Source: Chelatococcus sambhunathii
Lineage (GTDB): Bacteria; Pseudomonadota; Alphaproteobacteria; Rhizobiales; Methylopilaceae
Assembly: GCA_031316315.1 (NCBI GenBank)
Contig: JADBEO010000008.1
Span: 1 to 64,000, forward strand
Reading direction: 5' to 3'
DNA: 64,000 nucleotides
Shown here in pieces: positions 33,482 to 57,729 of this stretch. Within the stretch, counting starts at the first letter, position 1; the number at the start of each line of letters is the position of its first letter. The translations under genes were made by a program, and so were the position numbers. A model generated the notes under the pieces. The model did no database searches. It saw nothing but the letters and a program-made list of their open reading frames with translations, and was not told where the DNA came from.

Positions 33482-33516
33482 GCGCGGCGACCGTTGGACA
33501 TTCGGGGGACACAACG

Positions 33517-36572: not shown

Positions 36573-36693
36573 CCGGGCTTGACCCGGCAATCCATCGCTT
36601 TGGCCAAGATGACTTGGGCCAAGATGACTTAGGCCAAGAGAACTTGGGCCAAGAGAACTTGGGCCAAGAGGATGGATGCCGGGTCAAGCCCGG
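36573..36693. repeat. Inverted repeat with a 15-bp tandem array in its loop
   Basis: Arms ccgggcttgacccggc...tccatc (36573-36596) and gatgga...gggtcaagcccgg (36671-36693) pair with one bulge. Between them 36599-36672 holds about five copies of a 15-base unit (ttgggccaagatgac and variants ending gagaac). It lies between the permease and the deaminase. Confidence 0.85.
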
Positions 36694-39436: not shown

Positions 39437-40111
39437 TCAGGCCTGCGTCGCGGCGATGGCTGCGATCGCGGCCCGCGAGCTCGACACCCAGCCGAAGATG
39501 CCGCCTTGCGCCTTGATCATCTTCAACCCGTAGTCGTGGAATTCGGGGAAGTACGAGGCGCAGCAATCGTCCAGCACGACGCAGCGGTAGCCGCGATCAT
39601 TGGCCTCCCGGACCGTGGTGTTGACGCAGACCTCGGTGGTCACGCCGCACACCAGCAACGTATCGACGCCGCGGTTCCGCAGCATCAGCTCGAGATCGGT
39701 CTGGTAGAACGCGCCTTTGCCGGGCTTGTCGATGACCGGCTCGCCGGGCGCCGGGGCCAGAGCCGCGATGATGTCGTGGCCGGGCTCGCCCCGGACCAGG
39801 ATGCGCCCCATCGGCCCTTCCGCGCCGATCCTCAAGGATGGCTCGCCGCGCTCGACCTTCGCCTTGGGCGCGTCGGACAGGTCCGGCCGATGCCCCTCGC
39901 GGGTGTGGATCACCAGCATGCCGGCCGCCCGCGCCGCCGCGAGCACCGCCTGGCAGGGGGCGACTGCCGCGGCGAGCAGCGAGATGTCGTTTCCGAGCGT
40001 CTCGCCGAAGCCGCCGGGTTCGAGAAAGTCGCGCTGCATGTCGATGATGACGAGGGCGGTCCGGGCGAGGTCGACCGTTATCGGCTGCGGCTCGGCGTCG
40101 ATGGTCGCCAT
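39437..40111 (-). CDS. BiuH-like isochorismatase-family hydrolase (second copy)
   Basis: The 224-residue protein has the catalytic set Asp in [15 protein letters not shown], Lys in [15 protein letters not shown] and Cys in [17 protein letters not shown]. It shares [10 protein letters not shown] and the IDKPGKG-F-x2-TDLE segment with the biuret hydrolase at 46452-47153 but lacks its N-terminal PYPWPYNG extension. It is the last gene of the cyanurate-type operon, four bases after the AtzH-like gene. It probably cleaves a related ureide; the exact substrate is open. Confidence 0.85.
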
Positions 40112-40115
40112 CGTC

Positions 40116-40511
40116 TCAATCCTCGTCGATGACGCTGACATGCGCTGCGACGACCTTCCAGCCGTCGGGAAAGCGCACCCAGGTCTGGCTCTGGCGGCCG
40201 ACCTTGCCGGGCGCCCCTTCACGGCGGAACAGCGTGTTCGCGACCGCCATGTCGCGGCCATAGGTCGTGATCTGCGTCCTCTCGAGCGCACGCTCGAGCC
40301 CCTTCGGCGAGCGTCCCCGCCGGAAAGCGCGGATCTCCTCCATGCCATAGAGGTTCTCGGTCGCGCCGTAGCGCAGCGTGCGCGGGTCGTCGCGGAACAA
40401 AGCCTCGAGCGTCGCGACGTCGTTGCCGGTGAGCGCCGCCTCATAGGCCGCGAAGACCTGTTCGACCTCGGCCTTCACATCCGGGATGTCGACTTCGGGA
40501 TACTGGCTCAA
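40116..40511 (-). CDS. atzH: AtzH/HpxZ-like protein (DUF3225), probable 1,3-dicarboxyurea hydrolase
   Basis: The 131-residue protein has the SnoaL-like fold of DUF3225: [60 protein letters not shown] and [18 protein letters not shown]. In Pseudomonas sp. ADP, AtzH converts 1,3-dicarboxyurea to allophanate; HpxZ is the homologue in purine clusters. The TTG start at 40511 overlaps the AtzE stop as TTGA. Presence beside atzE, atzG and atzF supports the triazine assignment. Confidence 0.87.
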
Positions 40512-41866
40512 AGCTTCGCCTCGCGGAATTGCGCCACGCCAGCCGTTTCGAGCGCGCGGGCGACGCGGAGCGCGTCAGCCTCGCGCCACGGCGCTGCAAT
40601 GATCTGGACGCCGAGCGGCAGGCCGTCGTCGAGGAACACCGGCGCGCAGGCGACCGGCAGGCCGATGAAGGAGATCGGCTGGGTGAACACGCCGAGATTC
40701 GGCCGCACCGGCAGCGTGACGCCGTCGAGCGTGAACGTCGTCTGGCCCAGCCGCGGCGCCCGGCAGGGCGTGGCCGGCGCGAGCAGCACGTCGACCTCGT
40801 CGAAGACGTGCGCCGCCGCCTCGGCGAACCATCGGCGGAAGCGCTGCGCCTTTGCGACATAGGGCGCGGGGATCGTGGCGCCGGCGATCATCCGGTCGCG
40901 CACCGCGGGGTCGAAGTCATCCGGCCGCGCGCGCAGGCGGTCGAGATGCAGGGCCGCGCCTTCGGTCGCCGTGATGACGTAAGCCGCGGCGCGCGCTCGC
41001 GCCGCCTCCGGCAACTCGACGACGCGATCCGCCCCGAGAAACGCCGCCGCGCGCGCGACCGCCTCGAAGCAGTCCGGCTCCCCGCCGCGCGCGAAATGTC
41101 CGCCGAGCGTCGCGATCCGGAGGCCGCCCGCGCCGTCGTCGAGCGACGGCGCCGCGGGTTCGGGCGCGCGCGTGGTCGTGGCCGGGTCGTCGCGGTCGGG
41201 GCCCTGCATCGCGTCGTAGGCGAGGGCGAGCAGACGGGTCGAGCGCGCGATCGGTCCAAGGTGATCGAGGCTCTGGACGAAGGGGAACGTCCGCGCCCGC
41301 GTCAGCCGGCCGTAGGTCGGCTTCAGCCCGAAGCAGCCGCATAGCGCGGACGGCACGCGGATCGATCCGTTGGTGTCGGAGGCGAGCGCGACGTCGACCA
41401 GGCCGGCCGCGACCGCCGCGCCGGATCCTCCGGAGGAGCCGCCGGACATCCGGGTCAGGTCGCGCGGGTTCCGCGACGGACCGTCGTGGACGTTTTCGCC
41501 GGTGAAGTCGTAGGCGTATTCGCCCATGTTGAGCGCGCCGAGCAGGACCGCGCCCGCCGCTTCCATCCGGGTGACGAGCGCCGCGTCGCGCCCGGCCGGC
41601 GCGAGCTCGCGATTGATCTTCGAGCCGGCGCGGGTGGCGAGCCCGGCGACGTCGAACAGGTTCTTCACCCCGAAGGCGACGCCCGCGAGAGGTCCCGAGA
41701 CAGCGCCGTCGTCAAGCGCAAGGGCCGTCGCAAGGGCGCGTTCGGCGGTCACGTCGGTGAAGGCGCCGACGCGGCCGTCGATCGACCGGATCCGCGCCAA
41801 CGCTGCCGCGACCGCTTGTTCCGCCGGGCCCTCCCGGCGACGATCCGACTTCGCGGGCGCCGTCAC
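40508..41866 (-). CDS. atzE: AtzE-family amidase, probable 1-carboxybiuret hydrolase
   Basis: The 452-residue amidase-signature enzyme has the Ser-cisSer-Lys triad at K68 (VAFGVKNLFDV), S144 (RMSGGSSGGSGAA) and S168 (ASDTNGSIRVPSA). AtzE works with the small subunit AtzG to deaminate 1-carboxybiuret, the unstable product of cyanuric acid ring opening, to 1,3-dicarboxyurea. The GTG at 41866 overlaps the AtzG stop as GTGA, as expected for a fixed-ratio complex. HpxY in purine clusters is the other member type. Confidence 0.88.
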   Translation of the reverse strand: MTAPAKSDRRREGPAEQAVAAALARIRSIDGRVGAFTDVTAERALATALALDDGAVSGPLAGVAFGVKNLFDVAGLATRAGSKINRELAPAGRDAALVTRMEAAGAVLLGALNMGEYAYDFTGENVHDGPSRNPRDLTRMSGGSSGGSGAAVAAGLVDVALASDTNGSIRVPSALCGCFGLKPTYGRLTRARTFPFVQSLDHLGPIARSTRLLALAYDAMQGPDRDDPATTTRAPEPAAPSLDDGAGGLRIATLGGHFARGGEPDCFEAVARAAAFLGADRVVELPEAARARAAAYVITATEGAALHLDRLRARPDDFDPAVRDRMIAGATIPAPYVAKAQRFRRWFAEAAAHVFDEVDVLLAPATPCRAPRLGQTTFTLDGVTLPVRPNLGVFTQPISFIGLPVACAPVFLDDGLPLGVQIIAAPWREADALRVARALETAGVAQFREAKL

Positions 41867-42072
41867 AGGGCGTCCTCTCGGGCGGCGGGCGCGAAGACGG
41901 GCGCGGGCTCGACCTCGTCGTCGAGCGGGAACTCCGAGACGAAGCGCGCGGCCTTCATGGTCGCGTCGAGATGGGACAGGATGGAGCCGCGCCACTCGGG
42001 CGCGACGCGGAGCTCGAGCAACGCGGTCGCGGCGTCGAGATGTGCATCGAGTTTGTCCGCGTCCTCGCTCAT
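41863..42072 (-). CDS. atzG: AtzG-like small subunit (DUF4089)
   Basis: The 69-residue protein has the GatC-like DUF4089 pattern: LDAHLDAATALLELRVAPEW and a segment LSHLDATMKAARFVSEFPLDDEVEPAPVF. AtzG wraps around and stabilises AtzE. The ATG at 42072 overlaps the AtzF stop (TGATG) and its own stop overlaps AtzE; an upstream ATG would lengthen it by 12 residues into AtzF. Confidence 0.87.
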   Translation of the reverse strand: MSEDADKLDAHLDAATALLELRVAPEWRGSILSHLDATMKAARFVSEFPLDDEVEPAPVFAPAAREDAL

Positions 42073-43883
42073 CAGGCCGCCGCCCGCGCGCGCTGATAGG
42101 CCCGCCATCCGCCGAAGCGGGTGATGTCCTCCGCGTCCGCCGTCGCGACCGCTTCGGCGAGGAAGCCGAGCGCCGTCGAGCCGTCCGCGAGCCGAAGCGT
42201 TCCGACGCCGAGCGGGGCCGGCACGCCGGCGACGAACGGTCCGAACTTGTCCGAAGGCAGCGCCCAGACCTCGGTCGCGATGGCCGCCCCGGCGCCGTCC
42301 CCGACGCGGACGAGGCCGGGCCGCGCGACCTTTCCTGGCAGGGCGTACAGCCGGTAGCAGTCCGCAGTGTCGGCGATCCGGAGGAAGCGGGCGCCGAGGC
42401 GCGTGAGCTCGCCGTTGAGCGCCATGCCCGACAGATGCGCGCCGACCACCACGATCTCAATCTCGTCCGGCGCCGGCCTCGGAGCGCGCTCCGGAGCTGC
42501 GGGCGCGGGCAAGCCGAGCGCGCCGAGCGGCGTTCCGCCCATTTCGTGGAGCCGCTCGCCGATCACGGCGATCCGCGCATCCGCGCCGGCCTGGGCGATC
42601 AGCGTGACGCCGGCCGGCAGTCCGTCGGGTCGCGGCCGGCCGGGGACCGCGAGAGCGCAAAGATCCATGAGGTTCACGAAGTTGGTGTAGGTGCCGAACT
42701 CGCTGTTCAGGCCGACCGGATGCTCCAGCACTTCCGCCGCCGTCCTCGGACGGGGGTAGGTCGGCACCAGCAGACAGTCGACCAAACCGAGCGGGATCGA
42801 GAGCGCGCGTTTCATCGCGGCGAGTTCGTAGAGCCCGCCGAAGGCCTGGCCGGCGTCGAACCGCCGCGCGCCCTCAATGATGAGGCGGGTGACGGGGTGG
42901 ATCTCGTCCGGGCTCGTCTCGATGAAGCGGCGAAGCGCCTCGTAGCGTTCGGCGACGAAGGGGCCGCTGTAGAGCAGTCCGGCGACCGCGAAGAAGGGTT
43001 CGAAATCGAGCTCGACGAGTTCGCCGCCGAGCGCCTGGACGTCGGCGAGCGTCGCCTCATAGGCCGCTTCCGCCGCCGGATCGCCGCCGAAGCTGCGGGT
43101 CGAGGGCGTCGGGACGCCGACCCGGAAGCGTGGGGGAGGCGGTCCAAGCGGCGCCGTCCGGAACGCGCGCGAGAACGGGTCGGCCTGCTCGAAACCGGCC
43201 ATGGCGGAGAACACGGCGTAGGCGTCGTCGACCGACAGCGCGAAGACCGAAACGCAGTCGATCGTCTTGCAGGCCGGCACCACGCCCTTGGTCGGGATCG
43301 CTCCGAGCGTGGGCTTCAGTCCGACGATGTTGTTCAGCCCCGCCGGCACGCGGCCGGAGCCCGCCGTGTCGGTGCCGAGCGCGAAGGCGACGAGCCCGCG
43401 CGCGACCGCGACCGCGGAGCCCGAGCTCGAGCCGCCCGGCACGAGCGCCGGATCGACGGCGTTGCGCGGGACGGGGTAGGGCGTTCGGAGACCGACGAGC
43501 CCGGTCGCGAACTGGTCGAGATTGGTCTTGCCGACCGCGATCCCGCCGGCGGCCTTCAGCCGCGCGACCGCGACGGCGTCTTCCGCGGCGCGGTAGGCGA
43601 AACCCGGGCACGAGCACGTGGTCTCGAGCCCAGCGACGTCGATGTTGTCCTTGACCGCGAAGGGAACGCCCCAGAGCGGTCGGCCGTCGGACTTGCCGCC
43701 CAGCGCCCGAGCGGCGGAGCGGAGCGCGTCCTGCTCTGCGAGCGAGATGAAGATCCCCGGATCGCCGCACTCCTCGATGCGGGCGAAGACCTCGTCGAGG
43801 ACCGCTTCGGGAGACACGCCCGACGCATAGGTCGTCCTCAGCGAGGCGAGATCCAGCGTCAGGTCTGCAAGCGGACGCGCCAT
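42072..43883 (-). CDS. atzF: Allophanate hydrolase
   Basis: The 603-residue protein has an N-terminal amidase domain with K78 (WGVPFAVKDNIDV), S152 (VPGGSSSGSAVAVA) and S176 (GTDTAGSGRVPAGL), spaced as in AtzF of Pseudomonas sp. ADP, and a C-terminal allophanate-hydrolase domain (about 450-603: IEIVVVGAHLSGMALNGEL, YRLYALPGKVARPGLVRVG). It turns allophanate into two ammonia and CO2. The urea carboxylase partner of urea-type enzymes is absent, supporting the triazine role. Confidence 0.94.
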   Translation of the reverse strand: MARPLADLTLDLASLRTTYASGVSPEAVLDEVFARIEECGDPGIFISLAEQDALRSAARALGGKSDGRPLWGVPFAVKDNIDVAGLETTCSCPGFAYRAAEDAVAVARLKAAGGIAVGKTNLDQFATGLVGLRTPYPVPRNAVDPALVPGGSSSGSAVAVARGLVAFALGTDTAGSGRVPAGLNNIVGLKPTLGAIPTKGVVPACKTIDCVSVFALSVDDAYAVFSAMAGFEQADPFSRAFRTAPLGPPPPRFRVGVPTPSTRSFGGDPAAEAAYEATLADVQALGGELVELDFEPFFAVAGLLYSGPFVAERYEALRRFIETSPDEIHPVTRLIIEGARRFDAGQAFGGLYELAAMKRALSIPLGLVDCLLVPTYPRPRTAAEVLEHPVGLNSEFGTYTNFVNLMDLCALAVPGRPRPDGLPAGVTLIAQAGADARIAVIGERLHEMGGTPLGALGLPAPAAPERAPRPAPDEIEIVVVGAHLSGMALNGELTRLGARFLRIADTADCYRLYALPGKVARPGLVRVGDGAGAAIATEVWALPSDKFGPFVAGVPAPLGVGTLRLADGSTALGFLAEAVATADAEDITRFGGWRAYQRARAAA

Positions 43884-45400
43884 CAGTGATGCCCGGCCAT
43901 GTGCTCGCCGATCACGTGGACGTCGGCTGTCGCGATCGGCGTCTCGTAGACGAGGGCGCCGTCCGACATCACGAGGATGCGGTCCGAAAGCTCCATCAGT
44001 TCGTCCAGGTCCTCTGACATGAGGAGCACGGCGGCTCCCCCGTTGCGGGCCTTCATGATGCGGGCGCGGATTTCTGCGACCGCCGCGAAATCGAGCCCGA
44101 AGCAGGGGTTCGACACGATCAGCAGGTCGACGTCGCCGGTGAGTTCGCGCGCCAGCACCGCGCGCTGCACATTTCCGCCCGACAGCGACTGGATCGGCGA
44201 GGAGAGCGAGGCCGTCTTCACCTTGAATTGCTCGATGAGCTTTGCCGCGTAGGCGCGGATCGCACGGGCGCTGACCCACGCCGCCGGCTTGCCGTTCCGG
44301 CCAAGATCGAAGGTCCGGAACGAGATGTTCTCGGCGACCGTCATCTTCGGCGCGCAGGCGTTGCGCAGGGGCTCCTCGGGGATGAAGCGGACGTTGAGGT
44401 TCCGGGACTGCTCGCGCGTCGAGGCGTAGGGCGCCGCCTTCACCCTGATCTCGCCGCCCTCGCGGATCCTCTGACCGGCCAGCACCTCGAGAAACTCCTT
44501 CTGGCCGTTGCCGGAAATTCCCGCGATCCCGACGATCTCGCCCGCGCGGACCGACAATCCGTCGACCTCGATCGACTTCAGGCCGGTCCGGTCTTTGGCC
44601 TTCAGAGCGGTGACCGTCAGCACCGGCTTGGCCTCGGCCGGCGTCGCGGCGCGGCTGTCGAGGGTCGCGATCGGCTGGTCGCCGATCATCATCGCCGCCA
44701 TCGTCTTTCGATCGAGATCGGCGATACGGCCCGAGCCGGTCCGCTTGCCCTTCCTGAGGACGGTGACGTCGTCGCAGAACGCCGTCACCTCGTGAAACTT
44801 GTGGCTGATCATGAGGACGGTGAGGTCGCCGCGCTTCGTCATGCCGCGCACGAGGCCGAGCATCTCCTCCGCCTCGTTGGGCGTAAGCACCGAGGTCGGC
44901 TCGTCGAGCACGATGAAGCGGCGGCCGAGATAGAGCTGCTTGACGATCTCGAGCTTCTGCTTCTCCCCCGCCGCGAGCGCGCTCACCGGCTGGTCGAGCG
45001 GGATCTTGAACGGCATCGTCTCCATGAAGTCGGCGAGCTGCCGCCGCTCCCACCGCCAGTCGATGACCTTGGGCGCGTCCTCGCGCGAGATCACGAGGTT
45101 CTCGGCGCCGGTGAGCGACGGCACCAGCGTGAAGTGCTGGTAGACCATGCCGAGGCCAAGGCGGTCGGCGTCCTTGGGGCTCGCGATTACGGCTTCCTTG
45201 CCGTCCACGACCATCTGGCCCTCGGTGGGCGTGTAGAAGCCCATCATGCATTTCACCAGTGTCGACTTGCCGGCGCCGTTCTCGCCGAGCAAGGCGTGGA
45301 ACGTGCCGGCGGGGACCTTGATCGAGACGTCGTCGAGCGCCGTGAAGGCGCCGAAGCGCATGGTCATCCCGACAGCCTCGACCGCGACGGCTTTGCTCAT
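43883..45400 (-). CDS. ABC transporter ATP-binding protein, two-domain (BMP-type importer)
   Basis: The 505-residue ATPase has two nucleotide-binding domains. The first has Walker A GENGAGKST and an unusual signature LAAGEKQKLEI; the second has a degenerate Walker A (ISGNGQKEF) and LSGGNVQRAVLARELTG. This is the normal layout for nucleoside/purine-type importers. It overlaps the cyanurate-hydrolase stop (ATGA) and the AtzF start, so the transporter and the enzymes are made from one message. Confidence 0.93.
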   Translation of the reverse strand: MSKAVAVEAVGMTMRFGAFTALDDVSIKVPAGTFHALLGENGAGKSTLVKCMMGFYTPTEGQMVVDGKEAVIASPKDADRLGLGMVYQHFTLVPSLTGAENLVISREDAPKVIDWRWERRQLADFMETMPFKIPLDQPVSALAAGEKQKLEIVKQLYLGRRFIVLDEPTSVLTPNEAEEMLGLVRGMTKRGDLTVLMISHKFHEVTAFCDDVTVLRKGKRTGSGRIADLDRKTMAAMMIGDQPIATLDSRAATPAEAKPVLTVTALKAKDRTGLKSIEVDGLSVRAGEIVGIAGISGNGQKEFLEVLAGQRIREGGEIRVKAAPYASTREQSRNLNVRFIPEEPLRNACAPKMTVAENISFRTFDLGRNGKPAAWVSARAIRAYAAKLIEQFKVKTASLSSPIQSLSGGNVQRAVLARELTGDVDLLIVSNPCFGLDFAAVAEIRARIMKARNGGAAVLLMSEDLDELMELSDRILVMSDGALVYETPIATADVHVIGEHMAGHH

Positions 45401-46452
45401 GAGCGGCTCCTGTCGAGGATGATGGCGACCGGGCCGCCGCCGGGCGGCCCCTGATGCTCGGCGCCTCCGGAGACGTAGATCTCGGTTTCGCCGAAGAGGC
45501 CAGCCAGCGCGCCCCCGACGAAGGCGCGGGCGTGGCGGGTCGAGGAGATGTCGGAATCGTCGAGCATCACGTGCCGGCGGCCGCGGACCTGGCCCGACGG
45601 GTCGGCCTCGGCCTTGGCGAGCGCGGCGACCAGCGCGCCGTCGCCCATGCGCTCGCGAGCCTCCCGAACCGAGGCTACGTCGATCGCGTCGCGCATCACG
45701 GCATGGTCGATCGTCAGCGGGCCTGACCAGGCTTCGGACATGCCGAGCACGATGATCTCGTGGCCGTCGAGCTCGACACCGGCCGATGCGGAAGCGCGGC
45801 CCGAGAACATATCGAAGCCGCTGCAGACGTCCTCGTCGTCGATGTGATCGACGTCAACCTCCCCGAGAGCCACCGCGACGCCGAGCGCCGAGGCCCCGCG
45901 CGACAGCCCCATGGACTTCAGCGTGTCGCCGGTCGCGGTCGTGACGCCCCGCCGGGCCGCGTCCTCGACGCGGGCGGCGGTGAGCAGCGGGCATTTCACC
46001 TGAACGAAGTGAACGTCCTCGGCGCCCGTGACGCCTGCGTCCGCCATGGCGCGGCCGACGCCTTCGGCCACCATCTCGATCTGGCCGCGCCGGCCGAGCT
46101 GTTCGGGCGGCAGGTCGGCAGTCCGCGCGATGCCCACAGCGAGCGCGCCGGTCGGCGCGTCGTCGACGTCCTCGCGCGCGAACACAGTCCAGTGCGGCGA
46201 GAGCGCGCCTTCGGTTCCGCCGGACATGACGACCGCGACCTCGCCGGCGCCGCGGCGCTCGAACAGGTCGCCGAACACGCGCGCCGCAAAGCCCCGCGTA
46301 AAATCGTTCACGCAGCCGTTGCCCTCCGTCTTCCCCAGCACCGCGACGACGCTCTTGGGGTCGAGGCCGCCGTCGAACAGCGTTTCGACGCCTGATACGT
46401 CGTCCGGCCCGCTGGCCGGCAGGCGATGGACCACAGCGCGGCGCGAGCGCAT
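45397..46452 (-). CDS. atzD: Cyanuric acid amidohydrolase/barbiturase family enzyme
   Basis: The 351-residue protein has the three-repeat fold of this rare family, with a Lys-Ser pair in each repeat: K41 (LGKTEGNGCVND) and S77 (VVMSGGTEG), K153 (VQVKCPLL) and S221 or S223 (GRASASAGVEL), K280 (ALAKAEAD) and S328 (YVSGGAEHQGPPGGG). Members open cyanuric acid to carboxybiuret or barbiturate to ureidomalonate. The flanking biuret hydrolase and atzFGEH genes make cyanuric acid the better guess; sequence alone does not exclude barbiturase. Neighbours overlap at both ends. Confidence 0.87.
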   Translation of the reverse strand: MRSRRAVVHRLPASGPDDVSGVETLFDGGLDPKSVVAVLGKTEGNGCVNDFTRGFAARVFGDLFERRGAGEVAVVMSGGTEGALSPHWTVFAREDVDDAPTGALAVGIARTADLPPEQLGRRGQIEMVAEGVGRAMADAGVTGAEDVHFVQVKCPLLTAARVEDAARRGVTTATGDTLKSMGLSRGASALGVAVALGEVDVDHIDDEDVCSGFDMFSGRASASAGVELDGHEIIVLGMSEAWSGPLTIDHAVMRDAIDVASVREARERMGDGALVAALAKAEADPSGQVRGRRHVMLDDSDISSTRHARAFVGGALAGLFGETEIYVSGGAEHQGPPGGGPVAIILDRSRS

Positions 46453-47153
46453 CACCCGAGCGCCCGCACGAAGGCGTCCGACATCGCCACCGCGCCGAAG
46501 ACGCCGCCCTGCATCTTGATCATCTTGAGCGCGGCTTCGTGGTTGCCGGGATCGGTCGCGGCGCAGCAGTCCTCCAGCATCAGGCATTCGAAGCCGCGGT
46601 CGTTGGCCTCGCGCATGGTGGTGTGGACGCAGACGTCGGTGGTGACGCCCGTGAGGACGATGTTGTCGATGCGCTTCTGCTTGAGGATCATCTCAAGGTC
46701 GGTGGCGCAGAACGAGCCCTTGCCGGGCTTGTCGATGATGGGCTCGCCATCAACCGGATAGAGCTCGGGGATGATGTCCCAGCCCTTTTCGCCGCGCACC
46801 AGCACGCGGCCGCAGGGGCCGGGGTCGCCGATGCCGGCGCCGATGCGGCGCGAGCGCCAGCGCTTGTTGTCGGGAAGGTCTGCGAGGTCCGGCCGGTGGC
46901 CCTCGCGGGTGTGGAAGACGTGGTAGCCCTTGGCCCGCATCGCCGCGAGGACCTTCCTGATCGGCTCGATCGGGGCGCGCGTCAGCGACAGGTCGTAGCC
47001 CATGGCGTCGACATAGCCGCCCGGCGCGCAGAAGTCGGTCTGCATGTCGATGATGATGAGGGCGGTGTTCTCCGGCCTCAGATCGCCGTTGTAGGGCCAG
47101 GGGTAGGGATCGGACTCGACGAAGCGCTGCTCGACGCGGGCGTGTGCGTTCAT
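46452..47153 (-). CDS. biuH: Biuret amidohydrolase
   Basis: The 233-residue protein matches the Rhizobium leguminosarum biuret hydrolase throughout, including the N-terminal [18 protein letters not shown]-like [14 protein letters not shown] and [18 protein letters not shown]. Its triad D36 (IIIDMQTDF), K142 ([10 protein letters not shown]) and C175 ([13 protein letters not shown]) falls at the published residue numbers. It turns biuret, which forms when carboxybiuret decarboxylates, into allophanate and ammonia. GGAG precedes the ATG; the stop overlaps the next start. Confidence 0.94.
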
Positions 47154-47167
47154 GGCGTCTGCTCCTG

Positions 47168-48091
47168 TCACTTCGTGATCGACAGCTCTCCCGGCGCGCC
47201 GGCGAGCTGCCGGCCGGGCGAGGAGGTCGCGATCATGATGAGGAGGGTGAGGATGTAGGGGGCTGCGTAGAACAGGTAGTAGCCCTGCGTGACGCCGACC
47301 GACTGCAGCGCCGGCCCGAGCGCCCCCGCGCCGCCGAACAGCATGGCGGCGGCGAAGCAGCCGAGCGGATTCCAGCGCGCGAAGATCACGAGGGCGACGG
47401 CCATCAGTCCCTGGCCGGAGGAGATGCGCTCGTTCCAGCTGCCGGGATAGTAGAGCGAGAGATAGGCCCCGCCGATCGCCGCGAGCGCTCCGCCGAAGGC
47501 GGTCGCGAACAGGCGCACGGCGGTGGGCGAGAGGCCCATGGCGCGGGCCGAGTCCGCCGAGTCGCCGACGACCCGCACGATCAGTCCGATTTTGGTGTTC
47601 TTGAACGCCCACCAGAGCGCGACCGCCAGCACCGCGCCGAGCAGGAACAGCACGTTGACGTTGAGGGCGGCGCGGACCTGCGGCAGGGATGACCAGTCGC
47701 CCAGCGGGATGGCGGGGAGGTTGGGCGCCGAAGGCTGGATGTACGGCTTGCCGAAGAAGAACGCGATCCCGATGCCGAACAGCATCAGGGCGATGCCGAC
47801 CGCGATGTCGTTGACGCGCGGGAAGGAGCAGATCCAGCCGTGGAGCAGCCCGAAGCCGGCGCCTGCGACCATCGCGGCGAGCACGCCCGCCCAGGGCGAG
47901 CCGGTCTCGACGGCGATCGCGTAGGCCGCCATCGCGCCGAAGACGAGCGTGCCTTCGAGGCCAAGATTGATCCGGCCCGAGCGCTCCGTCACCGCCTCGC
48001 CCAGACTGACGAAGATGAACGGGGTGGAGACGCGGATGGCGCCGCCGAGGATGGCGAGCGGCACGCCCCACAGGCCGATGTCGTTCTCCAT
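47168..48091 (-). CDS. ABC transporter permease, BMP-type importer (subunit 2)
   Basis: The 307-residue permease has about eight to nine helices and the family segments [39 protein letters not shown] and [20 protein letters not shown]. It is the short permease of the nucleoside/purine-type importer. Its ATG overlaps the longer permease's stop (TGATG). Fourteen bases separate it from biuH. Confidence 0.92.
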
Positions 48092-49212
48092 CAGCCGGCC
48101 CTCTTCCAGCGGTCGGGATTGAAGACCTTGAAACGGCCGTAGAGCGTGTCGCTCATCAGCACGACGATGAAGAGCATGCCCTGGAGCACGAGGATGGTGG
48201 CGTCCGGCAGCCCCATGCGGCGCTGGATCAGGCCGCCCGCGGCGGCGATGCCGCCGAGCAGGAAAGCGACGGGAATGCAGCCGAGAGGGTTCTGACGGGC
48301 GAGGAATGCGACCAGGATGCCGGCGTAGCCGTAGCCGATGGCAAGCGAGGCGTTTGCCGTGCCCTGCACGGACGCGACCTCGAACATGCCGGCGAGCCCC
48401 GCGAGCGCGCCTGCGAGCGCGCAGAAGCCGACGATCAGCGGGCCGACTGCGAGACCCTGGATCTGGGCGGCCCGGACGTTGCCGCCGGCGACCCGCGCGG
48501 CGAAGCCCCAGCGCGTCTTGTCGATCAACACCCAGCAGGCGACGCAGGCGATCACGCCGACCGCTAGGCCCCAGTGGACGTCCATGCCGGGGATCGGGCC
48601 GATCCGATAGGCGGCGTCGAGCGGATGGGTCGAGGGCTTGTTCAGCGAGGCGGGGTCGCGCAACGGCCCTTCGACCAGCTGGTTCATCAGCGCGATGGCG
48701 ATATAGGCCATCAGCAGGCTCGAGATCGTCTCGTTGACGGCTCGATAGTGGCGCAGCGCGCCGACGGCCCCGATCCAGATCCCGCCCGCGATCATCGCGG
48801 CGAGACCCATGGCGAAGATCACGATCGGCGAGGGCAGGCCGGACAGCCAATGCCCGAAGGCCGCCGCAGCGACGCCGCCGAGCACGATCGCGCCCTCGCC
48901 GCCGATCACGGTGAGGCCGAGCCGCGCTGGCAGCGCGACGCAGAGCGCCGCGAACAGCAGCGGCGTCGCGCGCAGCAGCGCGTTCTGCACCGAGAACCAG
49001 GACCCGAAGCCGCCGCGCCACATCAGCTCGAAGAACTGGGCCGGCGACTTGCCGAGCGCGAGCAGGAAGAGGCTGAAGACCGCCATGCCGGCGATCAGGG
49101 CCGCGAGCGGAATGACGATCCCCTCGGCGCGGCGCGCCGCGAAGGCGAGCGCGCCCGAGAGCCTTGGCGGCGCGAGCGGCGCCGGAACGTCGGAGGCGGT
49201 CATGTCGGCCAT
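48091..49212 (-). CDS. ABC transporter permease, BMP-type importer (subunit 1)
   Basis: The 373-residue permease has family segments [55 protein letters not shown] and the loop [18 protein letters not shown]. It forms the channel with the shorter permease, driven by the ATPase at 43883-45400. The binding-protein gene lies 25 bp upstream on the same strand. Ligand by context is cyanuric acid or a related ureide. Confidence 0.92.
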
Positions 49213-49237
49213 GGAGACGTCTCCCCGCCCGGCCGCG

Positions 49238-50362
49238 TTAGGACGTCGAGCCCTGGACGCCTTCGACGAGGAAGCTCGTGCTTTCGAGCTCGATCGCGGT
49301 CTCGGGGAACGCCTTGCCGACGGCCGCGATCTCCTTGCCCCTGTTGTCCTTGAGCGGGCCCTTGATGACCGCGTAGCCGCCCTTCCTGATGTCGGCGAGA
49401 GTCGCCTCGAACTGCTTGCGGGCGGGCTCGCTCACGGCCGGCCCGAGCGGGCTCATCTTGACGAAGCCGTCCTGGATGCCGCCACGGGTGAAGTTCGGCA
49501 GCGGCTCGCCGGCGAGCAGATGCTTGGCGTACATCGTGTATACCGTCGCCCAGTTCCACTCCGCGCCGGTCAGGTACTTTTCGGGCGCGAGCGGCGCCTG
49601 GCTGGCGTGGTAGCCGCAGACGAACGCGCCGCGGTTGGCGGCCGTCTGGACCACCACCTTCGGCCCGTCGACATGGCAGGTGATGACGTCCGCGCCCTGA
49701 TCCACGAGCGCGTTGACGGCCTCAGCCTCCTTGACCGCGAGCGACCACTCGCCCGTGAAGATCACCTGGCAGGTGATGGTCGGGTCGACGGCGCGGGCGC
49801 CGAGCAGGAAGGCGTTGACGTTGTTCAGCACCTGCGGGATCGGCTTGGCGGCGACGAAGCCGATCTTCTTGGACTTGGTGGTGTGTCCGGCCACCACGCC
49901 GTTCAGGTACTGGCCCATCGCGATGTAGCCGAAATAGGAGCCGGCGTTCGTCGGGTGCTTGGACTTGTCCCAGAGCCCGCCGCAGTGGCGGAACTGGACG
50001 TCGGGGAATTTCTTGCACATTGCCAGCATGTGCGGATCGAAATAGCCGAAGGAGGTCGGGAACAGCAGCGAGGCGCCGTCGAGATTGATCATCGACTCCA
50101 TCGTCTTCTGGACGTCGACCGTCTCGGGGACGTTCTCCTCCTCGACGAGTTCAATCCCGTCCAGCGCCTTTAGCGCCTTGGCGCCTTCGGCGTGGGCCTG
50201 ATTGTAGCCGAAGTCGTCCTTGGGTCCGACGTAGATGAAGCCGATCGTGGTCGCCGCTGCCCGGACCCGCGTCGGGAAGGCCGGCCACCCCACGAGGCCG
50301 AGCGCGGCGCCGGCGGCCGAGGTCTTCAGAAGGCTGCGGCGGGAGATCGCAAGATCGGTCAT
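49238..50362 (-). CDS. BMP-family ABC substrate-binding protein, Tat signal
   Basis: The 374-residue protein begins with a twin-arginine-type signal (ISRRSLLKTSAAGAALG) and has the BMP fold: FIYVGPKDDFGYNQAHAEGA, LLFPTSFGYFDPHMLAMCKK, IGFVAAKPIPQVLNNVNAF and a closing FLVEGVQGSTS. It is the first gene of the cyanurate-type operon, so it sets the ligand taken in. Its close relative at 33517-34647 stands alone. BMP proteins characterised so far bind nucleosides, purines or autoinducer-like ligands. Confidence 0.92.
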   Translation of the reverse strand: MTDLAISRRSLLKTSAAGAALGLVGWPAFPTRVRAAATTIGFIYVGPKDDFGYNQAHAEGAKALKALDGIELVEEENVPETVDVQKTMESMINLDGASLLFPTSFGYFDPHMLAMCKKFPDVQFRHCGGLWDKSKHPTNAGSYFGYIAMGQYLNGVVAGHTTKSKKIGFVAAKPIPQVLNNVNAFLLGARAVDPTITCQVIFTGEWSLAVKEAEAVNALVDQGADVITCHVDGPKVVVQTAANRGAFVCGYHASQAPLAPEKYLTGAEWNWATVYTMYAKHLLAGEPLPNFTRGGIQDGFVKMSPLGPAVSEPARKQFEATLADIRKGGYAVIKGPLKDNRGKEIAAVGKAFPETAIELESTSFLVEGVQGSTS

Positions 50363-50463: not shown

Positions 50464-50474
50464 TGGCATGCAAT
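50464..50474. promoter_or_regulatory. Operator-like site TTGGCATGCAA
   Basis: The site is one insertion away from the perfect TTGCATGCAA at 52270. On the minus strand it overlaps the -12 part of the sigma-54-like element at 50469-50484, a position suited to repression. Confidence 0.5.
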
Positions 50475-50484
50475 GTCGGGGCCG
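50469..50484 (-). promoter_or_regulatory. Candidate sigma-54 promoter for the cyanurate-type operon
   Basis: On the minus strand the sequence is CGGCCCCGACATTGCA: GG and GC are ten bases apart with a full TTGCA, but the -24 element departs from TGGCAC. It lies about 107 bp upstream of the binding-protein ATG. Confidence 0.42.
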
Positions 50485-50543
50485 GATCTTGGGCGCGTCG
50501 CGGCGAGGAGCCTGCGCGCCGATCGCTACCCGACGAGGCGATG

Positions 50544-50555
50544 ATTGCATGCAAT
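50544..50555. promoter_or_regulatory. Operator-like palindrome ATTGCATGCAAT
   Basis: A perfect 12-bp palindrome. Its centre is exactly 20 bp from that of the next site, two helical turns, so bound dimers would lie on the same face of the DNA. Confidence 0.6.
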
Positions 50556-50564
50556 AAGCGATTT

Positions 50565-50574
50565 TTGCATGCAT
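50565..50574. promoter_or_regulatory. Operator-like site TTGCATGCAT
   Basis: It has a perfect 8-bp TGCATGCA core (50566-50573). Together with the site at 50544 it forms a tandem pair upstream of the operon promoter. Confidence 0.55.
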
Positions 50575-51166: not shown

Positions 51167-52183
51167 CTACTCGGCCGCGTCCTTGAATCGCTCGCCGTAA
51201 AGCCGCGTCGCGGCGGGGAAGCCGCAGGACGTGCCGTCGGTGACCTTGACCTCGTCCTCCCACGGCAGCCGGTACTTTCCGGCCACCATGTCGTGCATGA
51301 AGGTGTAGGGGCAGTCCTGCGCGCCGCCCTTCACCGCGACATAGGCGCGATGGCCGAGCTGGTAGATGTTGTTCTCGACGCCCCAGCCGATGCGCGCCTC
51401 GCGCACGAGGTCGGGCCGCACCTCGGCGGTGATGATCTCGTTGGCTCGTCCGGTCTCGCCATGGGCGATGACCGTCCCGTCGAAGTTCACGATCATGCCC
51501 TCGCCCATGGAGTCGAAGGAGCCGTCGGAGCCGCACATGCAGACGTTGGCGGTGACCATCAGGTTCTGGAACGCATTGGCCTGATTGGTGAAGCGCCAGC
51601 TCTGGCGGATCGGCGCGGTGTAGCCGGCGGTGCGGATCATGATCTCCGCGCCCTTGTAGGCGCATTCCCGCGCCATCTCGGGGAACATGCCGTCGTGGCA
51701 GATGATCAGCGCGATCTTCGCGCCTTTCGGCCCCTCGACCACCGGAATACCGAGATCGCCCGGCTCCCAGGGCTCGACCGGAACCCATGGATGCAGCTTG
51801 CGGTAGTTGAGCCGGATCTCGCCCTCATCGTCGATGATCAGCCCGGTATTGTACGGCATGCCACCGGGGTTGAGCTCCATGATGGAGAAGCAGCCCCAGA
51901 TCCGGTTGTCGACGCATGCCTTCCTGAAGGCGGCGACTTCCGGTCCGTCGACCCGGCACATGATCTCGGGATTGACGTCCATCGACAGGCCGTGAAGCGC
52001 ATATTCAGGGAACACGACGAGATCCATCGTCCCGAGGTTCCGCCGCGCCTTGGCGACCATCTCGACGATGACCTTCGTTTGGGCGGCCAAGTCGTCAGGC
52101 GTGACGACGGTCGGGAGTTGCAGTTGAACCAGCCCGATCACGACGCCGTTCTCCGACTTGTTCAGTCCTCCGAGACCGTTCAT
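51167..52183 (-). CDS. amiF: Formamidase (nitrilase superfamily)
   Basis: The 338-residue protein matches AmiF-type formamidases and aliphatic amidases, with the nitrilase triad E60 (LVVFPEYALHGLSMD), K129 (LNYRKLHPWVPVEPW) and C162 (IALIICHDGMFPEMA). It hydrolyses formamide to formate and ammonia in the cytosol; short aliphatic amides are the alternative. It is divergent from the GntR regulator, with a -24/-12 promoter and a TTGCATGCAA palindrome between them. Confidence 0.9.
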   Translation of the reverse strand: MNGLGGLNKSENGVVIGLVQLQLPTVVTPDDLAAQTKVIVEMVAKARRNLGTMDLVVFPEYALHGLSMDVNPEIMCRVDGPEVAAFRKACVDNRIWGCFSIMELNPGGMPYNTGLIIDDEGEIRLNYRKLHPWVPVEPWEPGDLGIPVVEGPKGAKIALIICHDGMFPEMARECAYKGAEIMIRTAGYTAPIRQSWRFTNQANAFQNLMVTANVCMCGSDGSFDSMGEGMIVNFDGTVIAHGETGRANEIITAEVRPDLVREARIGWGVENNIYQLGHRAYVAVKGGAQDCPYTFMHDMVAGKYRLPWEDEVKVTDGTSCGFPAATRLYGERFKDAAE

Positions 52184-52269: not shown

Positions 52270-52279
52270 TTGCATGCAA
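52270..52279. promoter_or_regulatory. Operator-like palindrome TTGCATGCAA
   Basis: A perfect 10-bp palindrome 51 bp before the GntR ATG and 11 bp upstream of the formamidase -24 element. The same core recurs three times before the cyanurate-type operon. Confidence 0.62.
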
Positions 52280-52329: not shown

Positions 52330-53028
52330 ATGCTGGACGCCACGATCGACGCAGATTCCGGCACTCGGACGGACCGCCTCGTCCGCGATATCTCCGATGC
52401 GATCATCGCCGGCGAATTCGAGCCCGGGGACCGGCTGGACGAGCATTCGCTGGCGGACAGGTTTGGCGTGTCGCGGACGCCGGTTCGGGAGGCGCTGCGC
52501 CAGCTCGCGACTTCCGGGCTCGTCGAGGTCCGCCCGCGGCGCGGCGCCGTCGTCGCGAGCCTGACGGCCGAGGGTCTCGCCGAACTTTTCGGCGCCATGG
52601 CGGAATTGGAGGCCACCTGCTCGCGGCTGTCCGCCATCGGCATGACGCCGTTCGAGCGGCGCAGGCTCGAGGCGCATCACGACGCCATGGAGACCTTCGT
52701 CACGCACAACGATCCGGAAGGCTTCGCCGCGGCGAACCTCACTTTCCACACCATGATCTACGCGGGCGCTCACAACGGGCCGCTCGCGGAGATGGCCGGC
52801 GGCCTGCGGCAGCGCCTGCTGCCTTACCGGCGCGCCCAGTTCCACACGCCGGGGCGGCTGCCGCGCTCGCATGCCGAGCACGGCGCCGTCGTCAAGGCGA
52901 TCATCGCGGCCGACGCTTCCGCAGCGCACGCCGCCATGCTGAGGCATGTCAGCCTTGTCGAGGACTCGTTCGAGCGGCTGGCGAGCGCTTATACGCGCTC
53001 CAGGACGAAGGGGCTCGCCGAGGCCTGA
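52330..53028 (+). CDS. GntR family regulator (FCD effector domain)
   Basis: The 232-residue protein has an N-terminal winged helix (DRLDEHSLADRFGVSRTPVR then EALRQLATSGLVEVRPRRGA) and an FCD-type helical effector domain with metal-ligand-like histidines (NLTFHTMIYAGAHNG, RSHAEHGAVVKAI). The ATG at 52330 follows GGAGG; the TTG at 52270 is part of the palindrome and is rejected. FCD regulators often bind short TTG-rich palindromes and are released by a pathway intermediate. It is the best candidate for control of the formamidase and cyanurate-type operons. Confidence 0.9.
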   Translation: MLDATIDADSGTRTDRLVRDISDAIIAGEFEPGDRLDEHSLADRFGVSRTPVREALRQLATSGLVEVRPRRGAVVASLTAEGLAELFGAMAELEATCSRLSAIGMTPFERRRLEAHHDAMETFVTHNDPEGFAAANLTFHTMIYAGAHNGPLAEMAGGLRQRLLPYRRAQFHTPGRLPRSHAEHGAVVKAIIAADASAAHAAMLRHVSLVEDSFERLASAYTRSRTKGLAEA

Positions 53029-53477: not shown

Positions 53478-56192
53478 CTAAGGCGCGCTTGCAATGTCCT
53501 TCGGCAGCCGATCGTAGATCCGGTCGGCCGCCAGAAGCAGCGTGTCGAAGCGGACGCCCGTCGCCGCGCGCACCGCGTTGGCGAGAGCGGCGGCGACGGG
53601 GTTGAACGGGCTTTCGCTCATTGATTTCGCGCCGAGCGGGCCGAGCGCGTCCGACGTTTCGGCGAACAGCACTTCCGTGCGCGGCGCATCCGCGAATGAC
53701 GGGATGTGATAGCTGCGGAACGCGCGGGTCGTCACCGACCCATCGTCCGCGACGTCGACGTGCTCGTACAGCGCCGCGCCGATCGCCTGCGCCACGCCGC
53801 CTTCCACCTGCCCACGGCACTGCATGGGATTGATGACCGTTCCCGCGTCAGCCGCATGCACGCTACGCAGGATGCGGATCGCGCCCGTCGCGCGGTGGAC
53901 CGAGACGCGGAACGCTTGGACGTTGAATGCGACCGAGCGGGGGCTCCCGTTCGTCGCACCGGCTCCGGAGAGCGGTCCGACGGCGGCGGCGAATGCCGGG
54001 AGCGACAGGAACGCGTCGCCGATCCTCATGCCGTCGCCGACGAGCTCGAAGGCGTTCTCGCCGGGCCCCGCCAAGCCCCGCGCGGCCGCGAGCATCGCCT
54101 CCTTGAGCGCGATCGCGGCGAGATGCGCCGCCTTGCCGGCGACCACTGTGCCCGTGGAGCCGAAGGCGCCGGTGTCGTAGCCGGCGCGGTCGGTGTCCGA
54201 CTGGACGATATTGATCCGGTCCGGCGTCGTGTTCAGCGCCGCGGCGGCGAGCTGCGCGTGGACCGTCGTAGACCCGTTTCCGAACTCAGCCGTGCCGATC
54301 GAGATCTCGTAGCCGCCGTCCGCCGTCAGCCGGGCCTCGGCGTTCGCGTAGTGGCCGCGCGGCGGGATGGTGTCCAGCATCCCGACCGCCATGCCTTCGC
54401 CGACCAGCCACTCGTCGGAAAGGTCTGTCGGCGCCTCGCGATCCCTCGCCATCGCGGCTTCCGCCAGATCGAGGCACTGGTCGAGGCCATAGGAGCCGTA
54501 TTCGACGTCGTGCGGGTGGTCGTCGAAGGCGACCATGGCGTCGCCGGGTCGGATCGCATTGATCCGCCGGAATTCGTAGGGGCTGATCCGGAGCTTCAGC
54601 GCGAGCTCGTCCATCGCGGACTCGATCGCGAAGTTGGTCTGGCTGAGCCCGTAGCCGCGGAAGGCGCCGGCCGGCACGACGTTGGTGTAGACCACGCGCC
54701 CGTCGATCCGCTTGTTGGCGCAGCGGTAGAGCGCGACGCTCTCGTTGCAGCCGTGGAAGAAGACGCCGGGTCCATGGTTGCCGTAGGCGCCGGTGTTGGA
54801 GAGCACCTCCATCTCGATGGCGGTCAGTCGCCCGTCCGCCGTCGCGCCGAGCTTCGCGCGCACACGCATGGGGTGGCGCGTGGTCGCGCCGACGAACTGT
54901 TCCTCGCGGCTAAACTCGAGCTTCACCGGCCGTCCGAGCTTCAGCGCGGCCAGCGCCGTCACGTCCTCCGTCAGCATCTCCTGCTTGCCGCCGAAGCCGC
55001 CGCCGACGCGAGCGCAGACGACCCGGATGTCTTCCGCCGGCAGGCCCAGCACGAAGGCGAGGCGCCTGCGGGCGAGGAACGGCACCTGGCTCGACGTGCG
55101 CACGTTCAGCCGGCCCTCGGCGTCGAGCCAGGCGAGCGAGCCGTGCGTCTCGAGATGGGCGTGCTGGATGCGGTGGGAATGGAAGACGCCCTCCACGACG
55201 GCGTCCGCCTCGGCGAAGCCGGCGTCCGCGTCGCCGATCCGTCCCCGGACTTCCGCGAGAATGTTGGATTTCGGAGCGCGCGAGCCGCTGGCCTCCGGGT
55301 GATCGTGAAGGATCGGCGCCTCGGGGGCGCTCGCCGCGTCCGCGTCGAACACGGCAGGCAGGATCTGGTAGTCGATCTTCAGCCGCCGGCAGCCTTCCTC
55401 CGCCGCCGCCTCGCTGTCCGCGACCACCGCCGCCACCCGCTGGCCGACGAAGCGGACAACGTCATCGAGCAGGCGCGTGTCGGGCGGATCGTCTGCGTCG
55501 AGCTCGTGCAGGCCGGTCGAGCTGCGTGTCGTCGGCGCGTCCTCATGCGTCAGAACGAGCCGCACGCCCGCAACCTGTAGGGCGTCGCTGGCGTCGATCG
55601 CGACGATGCGCGCATGGGCGTGCGGCGAGCGGGCGAGCTTCATGTGAAGCACGCCCTCCATCTCGAGATCGAAGGTGAAGGGCTCCGAGCCGGTGACGAT
55701 CCTGCGGCTCGCGGGCGCCGCGACGTTGCGGCCGGCGGCCTCGCCCGCCGCCGGCGCCTCGGCGTGGGTGACGCCGCGCACCGCGTCCTCGATCGCGCGG
55801 TAGGCCGTGCAGCGGCAGAGATTTCCCTTGAGCGCGCCCGGCAGATCCGCGAGCTGAGCCGGCGTCAGGCAGGACACGGTCATAACGGCGCCCGCCGTGC
55901 AGAAGCCGCACTGAAACCCTTGCGCGTCCACGAAGCTCTGCTGGACCGGCGTCAGTTCGCCGTCTTTCGCGAGGCCCTCGATGGTCGTCACAGCCCGTCC
56001 CTGGGCGCGGAAGGCCGGATAGATGCAGGAGTGGACCGGACGGCCGTCGACATGGACGGTGCAGGCGCCGCAGTCGCCGGCGTCGCAGCCCTTTTTGACG
56101 CCGAACCAGCCGAGCTGTCGCAGGAAGGTCCGCAGGCATTGGCCGGGCCTTGGGCTTGCGTCGAAGGACTGTCCGTTGATCTCGAAGCTCAA
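53478..56192 (-). CDS. Molybdenum hydroxylase: [2Fe-2S] domain fused to Moco subunit (xanthine dehydrogenase type)
   Basis: The 904-residue protein joins a two-cluster [2Fe-2S] domain (residues 1-145; C36, C41, C44, C56 and C95, C98, C126, C128) to a molybdopterin-binding large subunit (about 165-900; CARVGGGFGGKQEML, PAGAFRGYGLSQTNFAIES). The active-site glutamate is probably in GAKSMSESPFNP. The FAD domain is separate. Usual arrangements are FeS plus FAD fused, or three polypeptides, so this is uncommon. A TTG start overlaps the FAD-subunit stop. Beside UraD and HiuH, xanthine or hypoxanthine is the likely substrate. Confidence 0.88.
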   Translation of the reverse strand: MSFEINGQSFDASPRPGQCLRTFLRQLGWFGVKKGCDAGDCGACTVHVDGRPVHSCIYPAFRAQGRAVTTIEGLAKDGELTPVQQSFVDAQGFQCGFCTAGAVMTVSCLTPAQLADLPGALKGNLCRCTAYRAIEDAVRGVTHAEAPAAGEAAGRNVAAPASRRIVTGSEPFTFDLEMEGVLHMKLARSPHAHARIVAIDASDALQVAGVRLVLTHEDAPTTRSSTGLHELDADDPPDTRLLDDVVRFVGQRVAAVVADSEAAAEEGCRRLKIDYQILPAVFDADAASAPEAPILHDHPEASGSRAPKSNILAEVRGRIGDADAGFAEADAVVEGVFHSHRIQHAHLETHGSLAWLDAEGRLNVRTSSQVPFLARRRLAFVLGLPAEDIRVVCARVGGGFGGKQEMLTEDVTALAALKLGRPVKLEFSREEQFVGATTRHPMRVRAKLGATADGRLTAIEMEVLSNTGAYGNHGPGVFFHGCNESVALYRCANKRIDGRVVYTNVVPAGAFRGYGLSQTNFAIESAMDELALKLRISPYEFRRINAIRPGDAMVAFDDHPHDVEYGSYGLDQCLDLAEAAMARDREAPTDLSDEWLVGEGMAVGMLDTIPPRGHYANAEARLTADGGYEISIGTAEFGNGSTTVHAQLAAAALNTTPDRINIVQSDTDRAGYDTGAFGSTGTVVAGKAAHLAAIALKEAMLAAARGLAGPGENAFELVGDGMRIGDAFLSLPAFAAAVGPLSGAGATNGSPRSVAFNVQAFRVSVHRATGAIRILRSVHAADAGTVINPMQCRGQVEGGVAQAIGAALYEHVDVADDGSVTTRAFRSYHIPSFADAPRTEVLFAETSDALGPLGAKSMSESPFNPVAAALANAVRAATGVRFDTLLLAADRIYDRLPKDIASAP

Positions 56193-57004: not shown

Positions 57005-57045
57005 CGGTATCGTTTCCCTGCGCTAGATCCGCCCTCGACCGGATC

Positions 57046-57062
57046 GGCAAGCCTTGTGCCAA
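57046..57062 (-). promoter_or_regulatory. Sigma-54 promoter for the molybdenum hydroxylase operon
   Basis: On the minus strand the sequence contains TTGGCACAAGGCTTGCC: -24 TTGGCAC and -12 TTGC are intact with GG and GC ten bases apart. It lies in the 72-bp gap after uraD, 42 bp upstream of the FAD-subunit start. Confidence 0.72.
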
Positions 57063-57076
57063 GCCGCGGGGCGCGG

Positions 57077-57595: not shown

Positions 57596-57708
57596 GACGG
57601 CTGGCGTGAACTTCGTGCGGAAATGCTAGCCCGGCGCCGCGGCCCCTCGCCAGTCGTCGCGGCGCCGCTTTGTGCGGCGCCGAAGAGGTTGGGCGCCAAC
57701 ATTTTGCA

Positions 57709-57729
57709 CCTGCGCATGCATTGCGCAGG
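57709..57729. promoter_or_regulatory. Inverted repeat between uraD and hiuH
   Basis: Perfect 8-bp arms cctgcgca and tgcgcagg flank tgcat. It is near the middle of the divergent gap and could bind a regulator of both genes. Confidence 0.5.

Follow-up and report, generated by a model that had tools for sequence, protein, structure and literature searches.

Background

Why does one operon encode two different ways of passing through the same metabolic step? The question is raised by a stretch of 64,000 nucleotides from Chelatococcus sambhunathii (GenBank assembly GCA_031316315.1, contig JADBEO010000008.1, positions 1 to 64,000 of the forward strand; hereafter the window), in which genes for an importer, a biuret hydrolase (BiuH) and the AtzE, AtzG and AtzH proteins stand in a single run at 39437-50362. 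According to the available parts of two reports, triuret hydrolase (TrtA) and cyanuric acid hydrolase (AtzD) both produce 1-carboxybiuret, which turns into biuret (half-life in the TrtA assay, about 20 min), and AtzEG together with AtzH converts carboxybiuret to allophanate (PMC7948467, PMC6219798). In the literature accessible to us, the AtzEG and BiuH routes are mostly treated as alternatives of different bacteria. Pseudomonas sp. ADP was described, in the available part of one of these reports, as using neither biuret nor urea (PMC6219798).

The analysis here establishes which genes are present and in what order, the families and active-site residues of their products, their phylogeny, and a palindrome conserved upstream. 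We propose, with a probability of about 0.7, that the run is one operon whose products take up small ureides and mineralise them by two parallel routes. Each of its parts belongs to a kind already known or is closely related to one; what is new is their combination, the clade of the last gene (here called trtX), and the probable repeated assembly of such operons. Our literature search, which covered operon surveys only in part, found no report of AtzEGH and BiuH in one operon. As in the window, both branches from 1-carboxybiuret (one through dicarboxyurea, the other through biuret and BiuH) have been proposed for a single strain, Paenarthrobacter ureafaciens PC, but on weaker grounds: in the accessible part of that report GatA/GatC are only supposed to act as AtzE/AtzG, no atzD is annotated and no operon is described (PMC11945447). 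An operon whose two routes are fed by two makers of the same unstable intermediate would offer a direct test of how cells handle a metabolite that decays in minutes. Natural ureides, not herbicides, also become a testable origin for the AtzD-E-F toolkit.

An importer and both second-step routes in one operon

Eleven minus-strand genes occupy 39437-50362, each a full open frame overlapping or abutting the next. In the order of transcription they encode a binding protein, permease 1, permease 2, BiuH, AtzD, the ATPase, AtzF, AtzG, AtzE, AtzH and TrtX, with distances of +34, -1, +14, -1, -4, -1, -1, -4, -4 and +4 bp at the ten junctions, seven of which are overlaps. Coordinates, strand and junctions (-4 to +34 bp) agree with a preliminary description of this DNA, which had reported eleven overlapping or nearly abutting genes. 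That description had also called the system chromosomal, and older than the plasmid herbicide cluster; the greater age gained no support from these analyses. In two same-genus relatives the operon lies on a single contig, of 4.5 Mb in G012 (100% complete) and of 5.5 Mb in G008, which supports a chromosomal location there; the window itself belongs to a 120-kb contig.

Families were assigned by scores against curated NCBIfam cut-offs (BiuH, AtzD, AtzF, AtzE and AtzH) or a Pfam cut-off (AtzG), and chance was excluded by a wide margin. The product of biuH (46452-47153) scores 422 on NF050097 against a cut-off of 370 and carries the Asp-Lys-Cys triad and the Tyr/Tyr/Asp/Val set of biuret hydrolases. 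That of atzD (45397-46452) scores 528.6 on NF052395 (cut-off 360) and holds all three Ser/Lys dyads together with Arg188. In the barbiturase subgroup this position is Gln, as given in the available text of PMC4051656, so that a barbiturase was ruled out by the Arg; by its residues the enzyme is clearly predicted to be of the cyanuric-acid-hydrolase type. The allophanate hydrolase gene atzF (42072-43883) exceeds its equivalog cut-off (TIGR02713, 758.7 against 511), encodes the C-terminal domain (PF21986) as well, and is the single match in its own genome at E<=1e-30; the same genome has a urease alpha subunit match of 196 bits.

The other route is represented by three genes. The small partner subunit AtzG (41863-42072; PF13318, 43 bits against 24, scanned from 42108) has a start at 42072 that overlaps the atzF stop, with an alternative in-frame start upstream at 42108. 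Adjacent to it lies atzE (40508-41866, GTG start), a 1-carboxybiuret amidohydrolase candidate that scores 637 on TIGR02715 (cut-off 426) and 462 bits with the AtzE of strain ADP (PDB 6c62). The gene for an AtzH-like decarboxylating hydrolase (40116-40511, TTG start) scores 199 bits on PF11533 and 203 on the AtzH-like/HpxZ model NF033625 (cut-off 135). Its product has the equivalents of Tyr22 and Arg46, the catalytic residues of AtzH in the available part of PMC6219798; a tree of AtzH sequences gave no resolution. Gene content thus supports an operon with an importer and both second-step routes, BiuH and AtzE/G/H, each predicted to lead from carboxybiuret to allophanate and AtzF.

The last gene encodes a candidate triuret hydrolase

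The preliminary description had recognised both routes and had listed the last gene, trtX (39437-40111), as BiuH-like. The first point is upheld by the gene content; a second BiuH is not. On the BiuH model TrtX scores 277, below the cut-off of 370, and it has F, N, E and I in place of Y, Y, D and V. Of the solved structures it matches the triuret hydrolase 6xix best (284 bits, 62% identity), ahead of the Rhodococcus BiuH 6xjm (243) and the Rhizobium BiuH 6azo (233). It equals TrtA at twelve residues (D24, F29, F35, N41, E72, K129, K132, T158, E160, C162, Q202 and I205), among them the active-site and second-shell positions F35, N41, E160, Q202 and I205; second-shell positions that separate TrtA from BiuH are named in the accessible part of PMC7948467. 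With rows labelled by best BLAST hit, and those of both BiuH labels counted together, the twelve residues are kept in the window, in 15 of 15 other TrtX rows and in 43 of 43 TrtA rows, whereas all 50 BiuH rows have Y, Y and D at 35, 41 and 160, and 49 have V at 205 (one gap). The sub-cut-off score and the TrtA residues reject a second BiuH, and the product is a candidate TrtA-type triuret hydrolase.

It is not a plain TrtA orthologue, a reading rejected by its tree position. In a tree of 63 chosen rows whose bootstrap had not settled, the window TrtX falls in a clade of 13 rows (99/95) outside the 27-row TrtA clade that holds 6xix (100/99). Three further TrtX-labelled rows (L057, L058 and L060; we number loci with L and genomes with G) join the 13-row clade weakly (93/56). 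Trees here and below were built from rows free of stops and above a length limit.

The distribution of TrtX was surveyed in 385 genomes drawn evenly from the class (E<=1e-60, with at most seven candidates scored per genome). Matches were found in 46, of which 14, the own genome included, have TrtX and 32 have others. Among the 13 TrtX genomes outside the genus, an AtzE-family protein occurs in ten (in G161 at 44% identity), BiuH in six and AtzF in 11, and 12 carry AtzE, BiuH or both; this is what a producer of carboxybiuret would need, and it fits TrtX as such a maker. When second matches were classed, no TrtA at E<=1e-60 was listed among these 13. Five TrtX genomes (G228, G051, G325, G357 and G183) have a separate importer-biuH-ATPase locus, where no trt gene was seen. 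AtzE-family genes are present in 11 of the 14 TrtX genomes and in 11 of the 32 other hit genomes (Fisher p 0.0096, kinship ignored), so the co-occurrence fits a carboxybiuret maker and falls short of proof.

A protein of about 510-550 residues, membrane-like by eye, is encoded beside or near trtX at L061 (10492-12036), with relatives in L049, L051-L053, L056-L058 and L060. The L061 copy found no Pfam or NCBIfam match; the protein is possibly a transporter for the same substrate. Within the window, 24245-25024 encodes a further isochorismatase-family hydrolase, RutB/BiuH-like and below both cut-offs, whose relatives (39-50% identity) occur in eight named atzD loci.

Cyanuric acid, a probably optional input

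Counting its own genome, 13 genomes of the genus were compared, and AtzE occurs in five of them (G000, G003, G005, G008 and G012), and the same five have BiuH at >=86% identity. Their operons share a constant set of importer, BiuH, AtzF-G-E-H and TrtX. The gene atzD is absent in G003 and G012, and in G008, a single-contig assembly of 88% completeness, it lies in two pieces in different frames, possibly through a sequencing error. Two of the five operons thus have no atzD and one a split copy, which makes cyanuric acid probably a supplementary input. A source of cyanuric acid other than herbicides exists, since the accessible part of one report places the compound in Paramecium secretions (PMC12342508).

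Related operons and their assembly

A scan with an alignment of AtzD gave 80 named loci, the best 80 of at least 569 confirmed, so that the fractions given here are biased towards the window AtzD; 22 of the 80 loci are truncated to under 18 kb. In 32, atzD shares its same-strand run with biuH, joined there by the importer and a trt gene in 31. Interleaving of importer and enzyme genes is therefore common and not peculiar to the window, although it had been thought distinctive. An ATPase gene among the enzyme genes, put forward as a mark of this system, is likewise seen at locus L075 on plasmid pRL10 of Rhizobium johnstonii (leguminosarum) 3841. Runs with both routes are few: besides the genus, biuH, atzD and atzE stand in one run in four of the 80 loci (L104 in a Bosea metagenome-assembled genome (MAG), L109 and L110 in Kaistia, L131 in a Rhodobacteraceae MAG), and a further such operon was found in G027 (L016). 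In two of the 80 (L123 and L140) atzE is nearby on the opposite strand, and L148 has atzE and atzD without biuH.

The 3841 locus has the order binding protein, permease 1, permease 2, fmdA, biuH, atzD, ATPase, trtA. It resembles the window in its adjacent gntR, its ATPase clade and the order binding protein-permease-permease-biuH-atzD-ATPase, and differs in having fmdA inside and trtA directly after the ATPase, where the window has fmdA upstream and atzF-G-E-H plus trtX. No atzG, atzE or atzH was called in the 21-kb locus. With strain ADP (atzDGEHF/atzRSTUVW) the window shares the AtzD, G, E, H and F families and an AtzT-type binding protein, but neither gene order nor importer placement: in the available text on ADP the importer is a separate divergent operon, the regulator is AtzR and the order is D-G-E-H-F without biuH (PMC6834077, PMC6219798). 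The TrtA-BiuH-AtzF pathway of Herbaspirillum BH-1, as described in the accessible part of PMC7948467, has the same step from triuret to carboxybiuret and the same active-site residues, but goes on through biuret; the window adds the AtzEG branch, and its triuret-type enzyme lies outside the TrtA clade.

Also comparable are the operons with both routes in Kaistia dalseonensis, K. soli, the Bosea MAG, the Rhodobacteraceae MAG and G027 (L109, L110, L104, L131 and L016), where importer, biuH, atzD, ATPase, a trt gene and atzG-E-H form one same-strand run. Unlike the window, they have TrtA proper, the GEH genes after trtA, and another importer lineage. In an ATPase tree of 40 rows (14 omitted as presumed near-copies), the window groups with the Rhizobium 3841 type (14 rows, 100/99), and the five operons fall in a different lineage (within 10 rows, 100/99). 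In L016, L104, L110 and L131, though not in L109, atzE and atzH are separated by a 5-formyltetrahydrofolate cyclo-ligase-type gene, seen by eye and Pfam-checked for L110 only; in L112 such a gene lies between trtA and atzH.

Outside the genus, the window AtzE has its nearest relative in G342 (73% identity; 99/92), in a GEH cluster that lacks biuH. On the starred branches of the ATPase tree, the label for carrying both routes needs three changes. This tree speaks against a single origin, and the simplest reading is that the pairing probably arose twice. An approximately unbiased test gave p 0.121 for a single clade of the ten AtzE rows from operons and so does not reject one origin; a GEH block may instead have passed between operons. 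The window operon looks like the union of a 3841-type importer-biuH(-atzD)-ATPase module with an atzF-G-E-H plus trtX block. In G228 and G325 a similar set stands in separate loci, with importer-biuH-ATPase in one (L159 and L161), trtX, atzE and atzH in another (L052 and L049, where no atzG was called) and atzF elsewhere.

The proposed pathway and its alternatives

In the pathway that we propose, the importer would take up, probably, triuret, biuret and/or cyanuric acid. TrtX (acting probably on triuret) and AtzD (on cyanuric acid) would both form 1-carboxybiuret. AtzEG would deaminate this to 1,3-dicarboxyurea, from which AtzH would give allophanate, while carboxybiuret that had decarboxylated spontaneously, and imported biuret, would reach allophanate through BiuH. 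AtzF would be the common end of both routes, releasing ammonia and CO2, and an operon with both would lose neither branch. We extend this proposal tentatively, at somewhat short of even odds: operons with both routes may have come together two or more times, on importer lineages that differ, perhaps because carboxybiuret is too short-lived for one route to catch all its nitrogen; their original job may have been to scavenge ureides that derive from uric acid, triuret among them, cyanuric acid being an optional input; and TrtX, a sister family of TrtA, may be the triuret enzyme paired with AtzEG as TrtA is with BiuH.

Several points weigh against this account. Our scores do not tell AtzE apart from the oxalurate enzyme HpxY, and the AtzE trees hold the ADP AtzE and no characterised HpxY row. 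AtzH may act elsewhere, since relatives of it follow trtA without an atzE in L102 and in L112 (with the folate-ligase-family gene between). TrtX stands apart from the characterised TrtA clade, and G246 has TrtX without AtzE, BiuH or AtzF at the thresholds used. TrtX may have another substrate, since it lies beside AllF/G/K-type oxalurate genes in four of the 13 genomes outside the genus (L054, L056, L059 and L061). Substrates, fluxes, control by GntR and the reason for two routes are what we infer from the sequences.

The best of the alternatives, itself unlikely, is that the atzF-G-E-H-trtX block is a uric-acid/oxalurate branch (HpxXYZ-like) merely placed in a biuret operon. It would account for the AllF/G/K-type neighbours, although AllH, AllG, FdrA (AllF) and carbamate kinase were model-checked (Pfam, NCBIfam) on L061 only, and for the AtzE/HpxY-family genes found within the roughly 20-kb TrtX loci of six of the 13 genomes (L049, L050, L052, L053, L058 and L060); three loci (L051, L055 and L057) have neither kind. 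Purine-type genes in the flanks of the window agree with it, as do the score of the AtzH gene above the HpxZ equivalog cut-off and its slightly closer match to the uncharacterised 2rcd (154 bits, 61%) than to AtzH 6bjt (142 bits, 59%). The overlap of atzF with atzG speaks against it, as does the AtzF relative found within the 14-20 kb locus of eight of ten further AtzE clusters (L149-L158, excepting L149 and L154). AllG is absent from the own genome, and every compared triuret-contacting residue is kept in TrtX; the latter also disfavours an oxamate amidohydrolase, a candidate raised by the AllF/G/K neighbours.

Slightly more doubtful is a scheme in which the AtzH-like protein is a carboxybiuret decarboxylase in the role of TrtB and feeds BiuH, which would be the main route, with AtzEG minor. 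TrtB is named as such a decarboxylase in the available part of PMC7948467. The arrangement in the 21-kb loci L102 and L112 would suit it; so might L146 and L046, in which an AtzH-like gene follows trtA and the sequence is short or ends soon after, so that an atzE may lie further on. The equivalents of Y22, R46 and R73 are kept in L102, L112 and L146. On the other hand, the window AtzH shares 63-78% identity with eight AtzH proteins encoded next to atzE (L016, L104, L109, L110, L131, L148, L149 and L150), against 54-57% with those of L102, L112 and L146, a split blurred by L049 (49%), L058 (54%) and the ADP AtzH (59%), which also go with atzE; and there is a 4-bp overlap of atzE with atzH. The version first described, in which the system is dedicated to cyanuric acid and has two biuret hydrolases, gains from the clear AtzD but is very improbable, given the last gene's score and residues and the loss of atzD in G003 and G012. 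The uptake and mineralisation of small ureides by two parallel routes is the reading that we prefer.

The importer and its binding protein

The first gene of this proposed ureide operon (49238-50362) encodes a periplasmic substrate-binding protein of the BMP/PnrA family with a probable twin-arginine translocation (TAT) signal, a homologue of AtzT (PF02608, 127 bits; PDB 6pi5, 202 bits). In the accessible part of PMC6834077, AtzT binds guanine at 0.11 uM but cyanuric acid far more weakly, at 340 uM. At the positions of AtzT Tyr45, Ser97, Phe98, Glu165, Trp194, Asn218 and Asn220 the window protein has Y, S, F, Q, W, H and D. Three residues of the guanine/2-hydroxyatrazine pocket thus differ (Q165/H218/D220 against E/N/N); the ligand is probably not guanine. 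All three are identical in 37 of 37 relatives of the same type, and ten of a second type (SBP2) differ again (W45, S or T165).

Permease 1 (48091-49203) scores 173 bits on NF047929, under the B6-transporter cut-off of 400, and permease 2 (47168-48091), which overlaps it by 1 bp, scores 118 on NF047928, under 465. The ATPase (43883-45400) has two ABC domains (PF00005 twice). Two other BMP-type systems were seen in the window. One is a second binding protein with a different pocket (33499-34647; W45, I165), upstream of which lies a weakly formamidase-like gene (32033-33481; 66.8 bits, cut-off 500); the other, suggested by resemblance alone, is a further importer at about 58252-63015.

Regulation and flanking genes

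Upstream of the operon lie two genes that the preliminary description had left out, and relatives of which occur in the same neighbourhood of many related loci. One is an fmdA-type formamidase (51167-52183, minus strand; NF009803, 584 against 406), which many relatives carry within the operon, flanked by permease 2 and biuH. The other, on the plus strand, encodes a GntR-family regulator and candidate repressor (about 52330-53028; GntR-type models, all under their own cut-offs), with a first open start at 52270 and the first ATG inside at 52330.

Three TTGCATGCAA-like palindromes, candidate operators, lie 5' of the binding-protein gene (50464-50574), and a fourth, exact one between the divergent fmdA and gntR (52270-52279). 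With at most one mismatch these four, all in two control regions, are the only TTGCATGCAA sites in the window, against 0.63 expected (four were reached by 3 of 100 shuffles). The palindrome is found in 23 of 50 upstream regions (7 exact), the window and near-copies being among the 50, whereas 320 palindromes of equal AT content average 0.40; TTGCATGCAA had first been spotted by eye in the window. It is likely a GntR operator. The next-best palindrome upstream of the binding-protein gene, CTGTATACAG, occurs in 10 of the 50 regions and might serve another GntR variant as its operator. A sigma-54 promoter gained no support in the window (14 matches at up to two mismatches, 15.5 expected).

The purine-type genes in the flanks are a xanthine permease, an 8-oxoguanine deaminase and a xanthine-dehydrogenase-like gene, the last within 53478-63015 and below its cut-offs. 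Between the first two of these genes a 15-bp unit is repeated in tandem 4.9 times (36598-36670).

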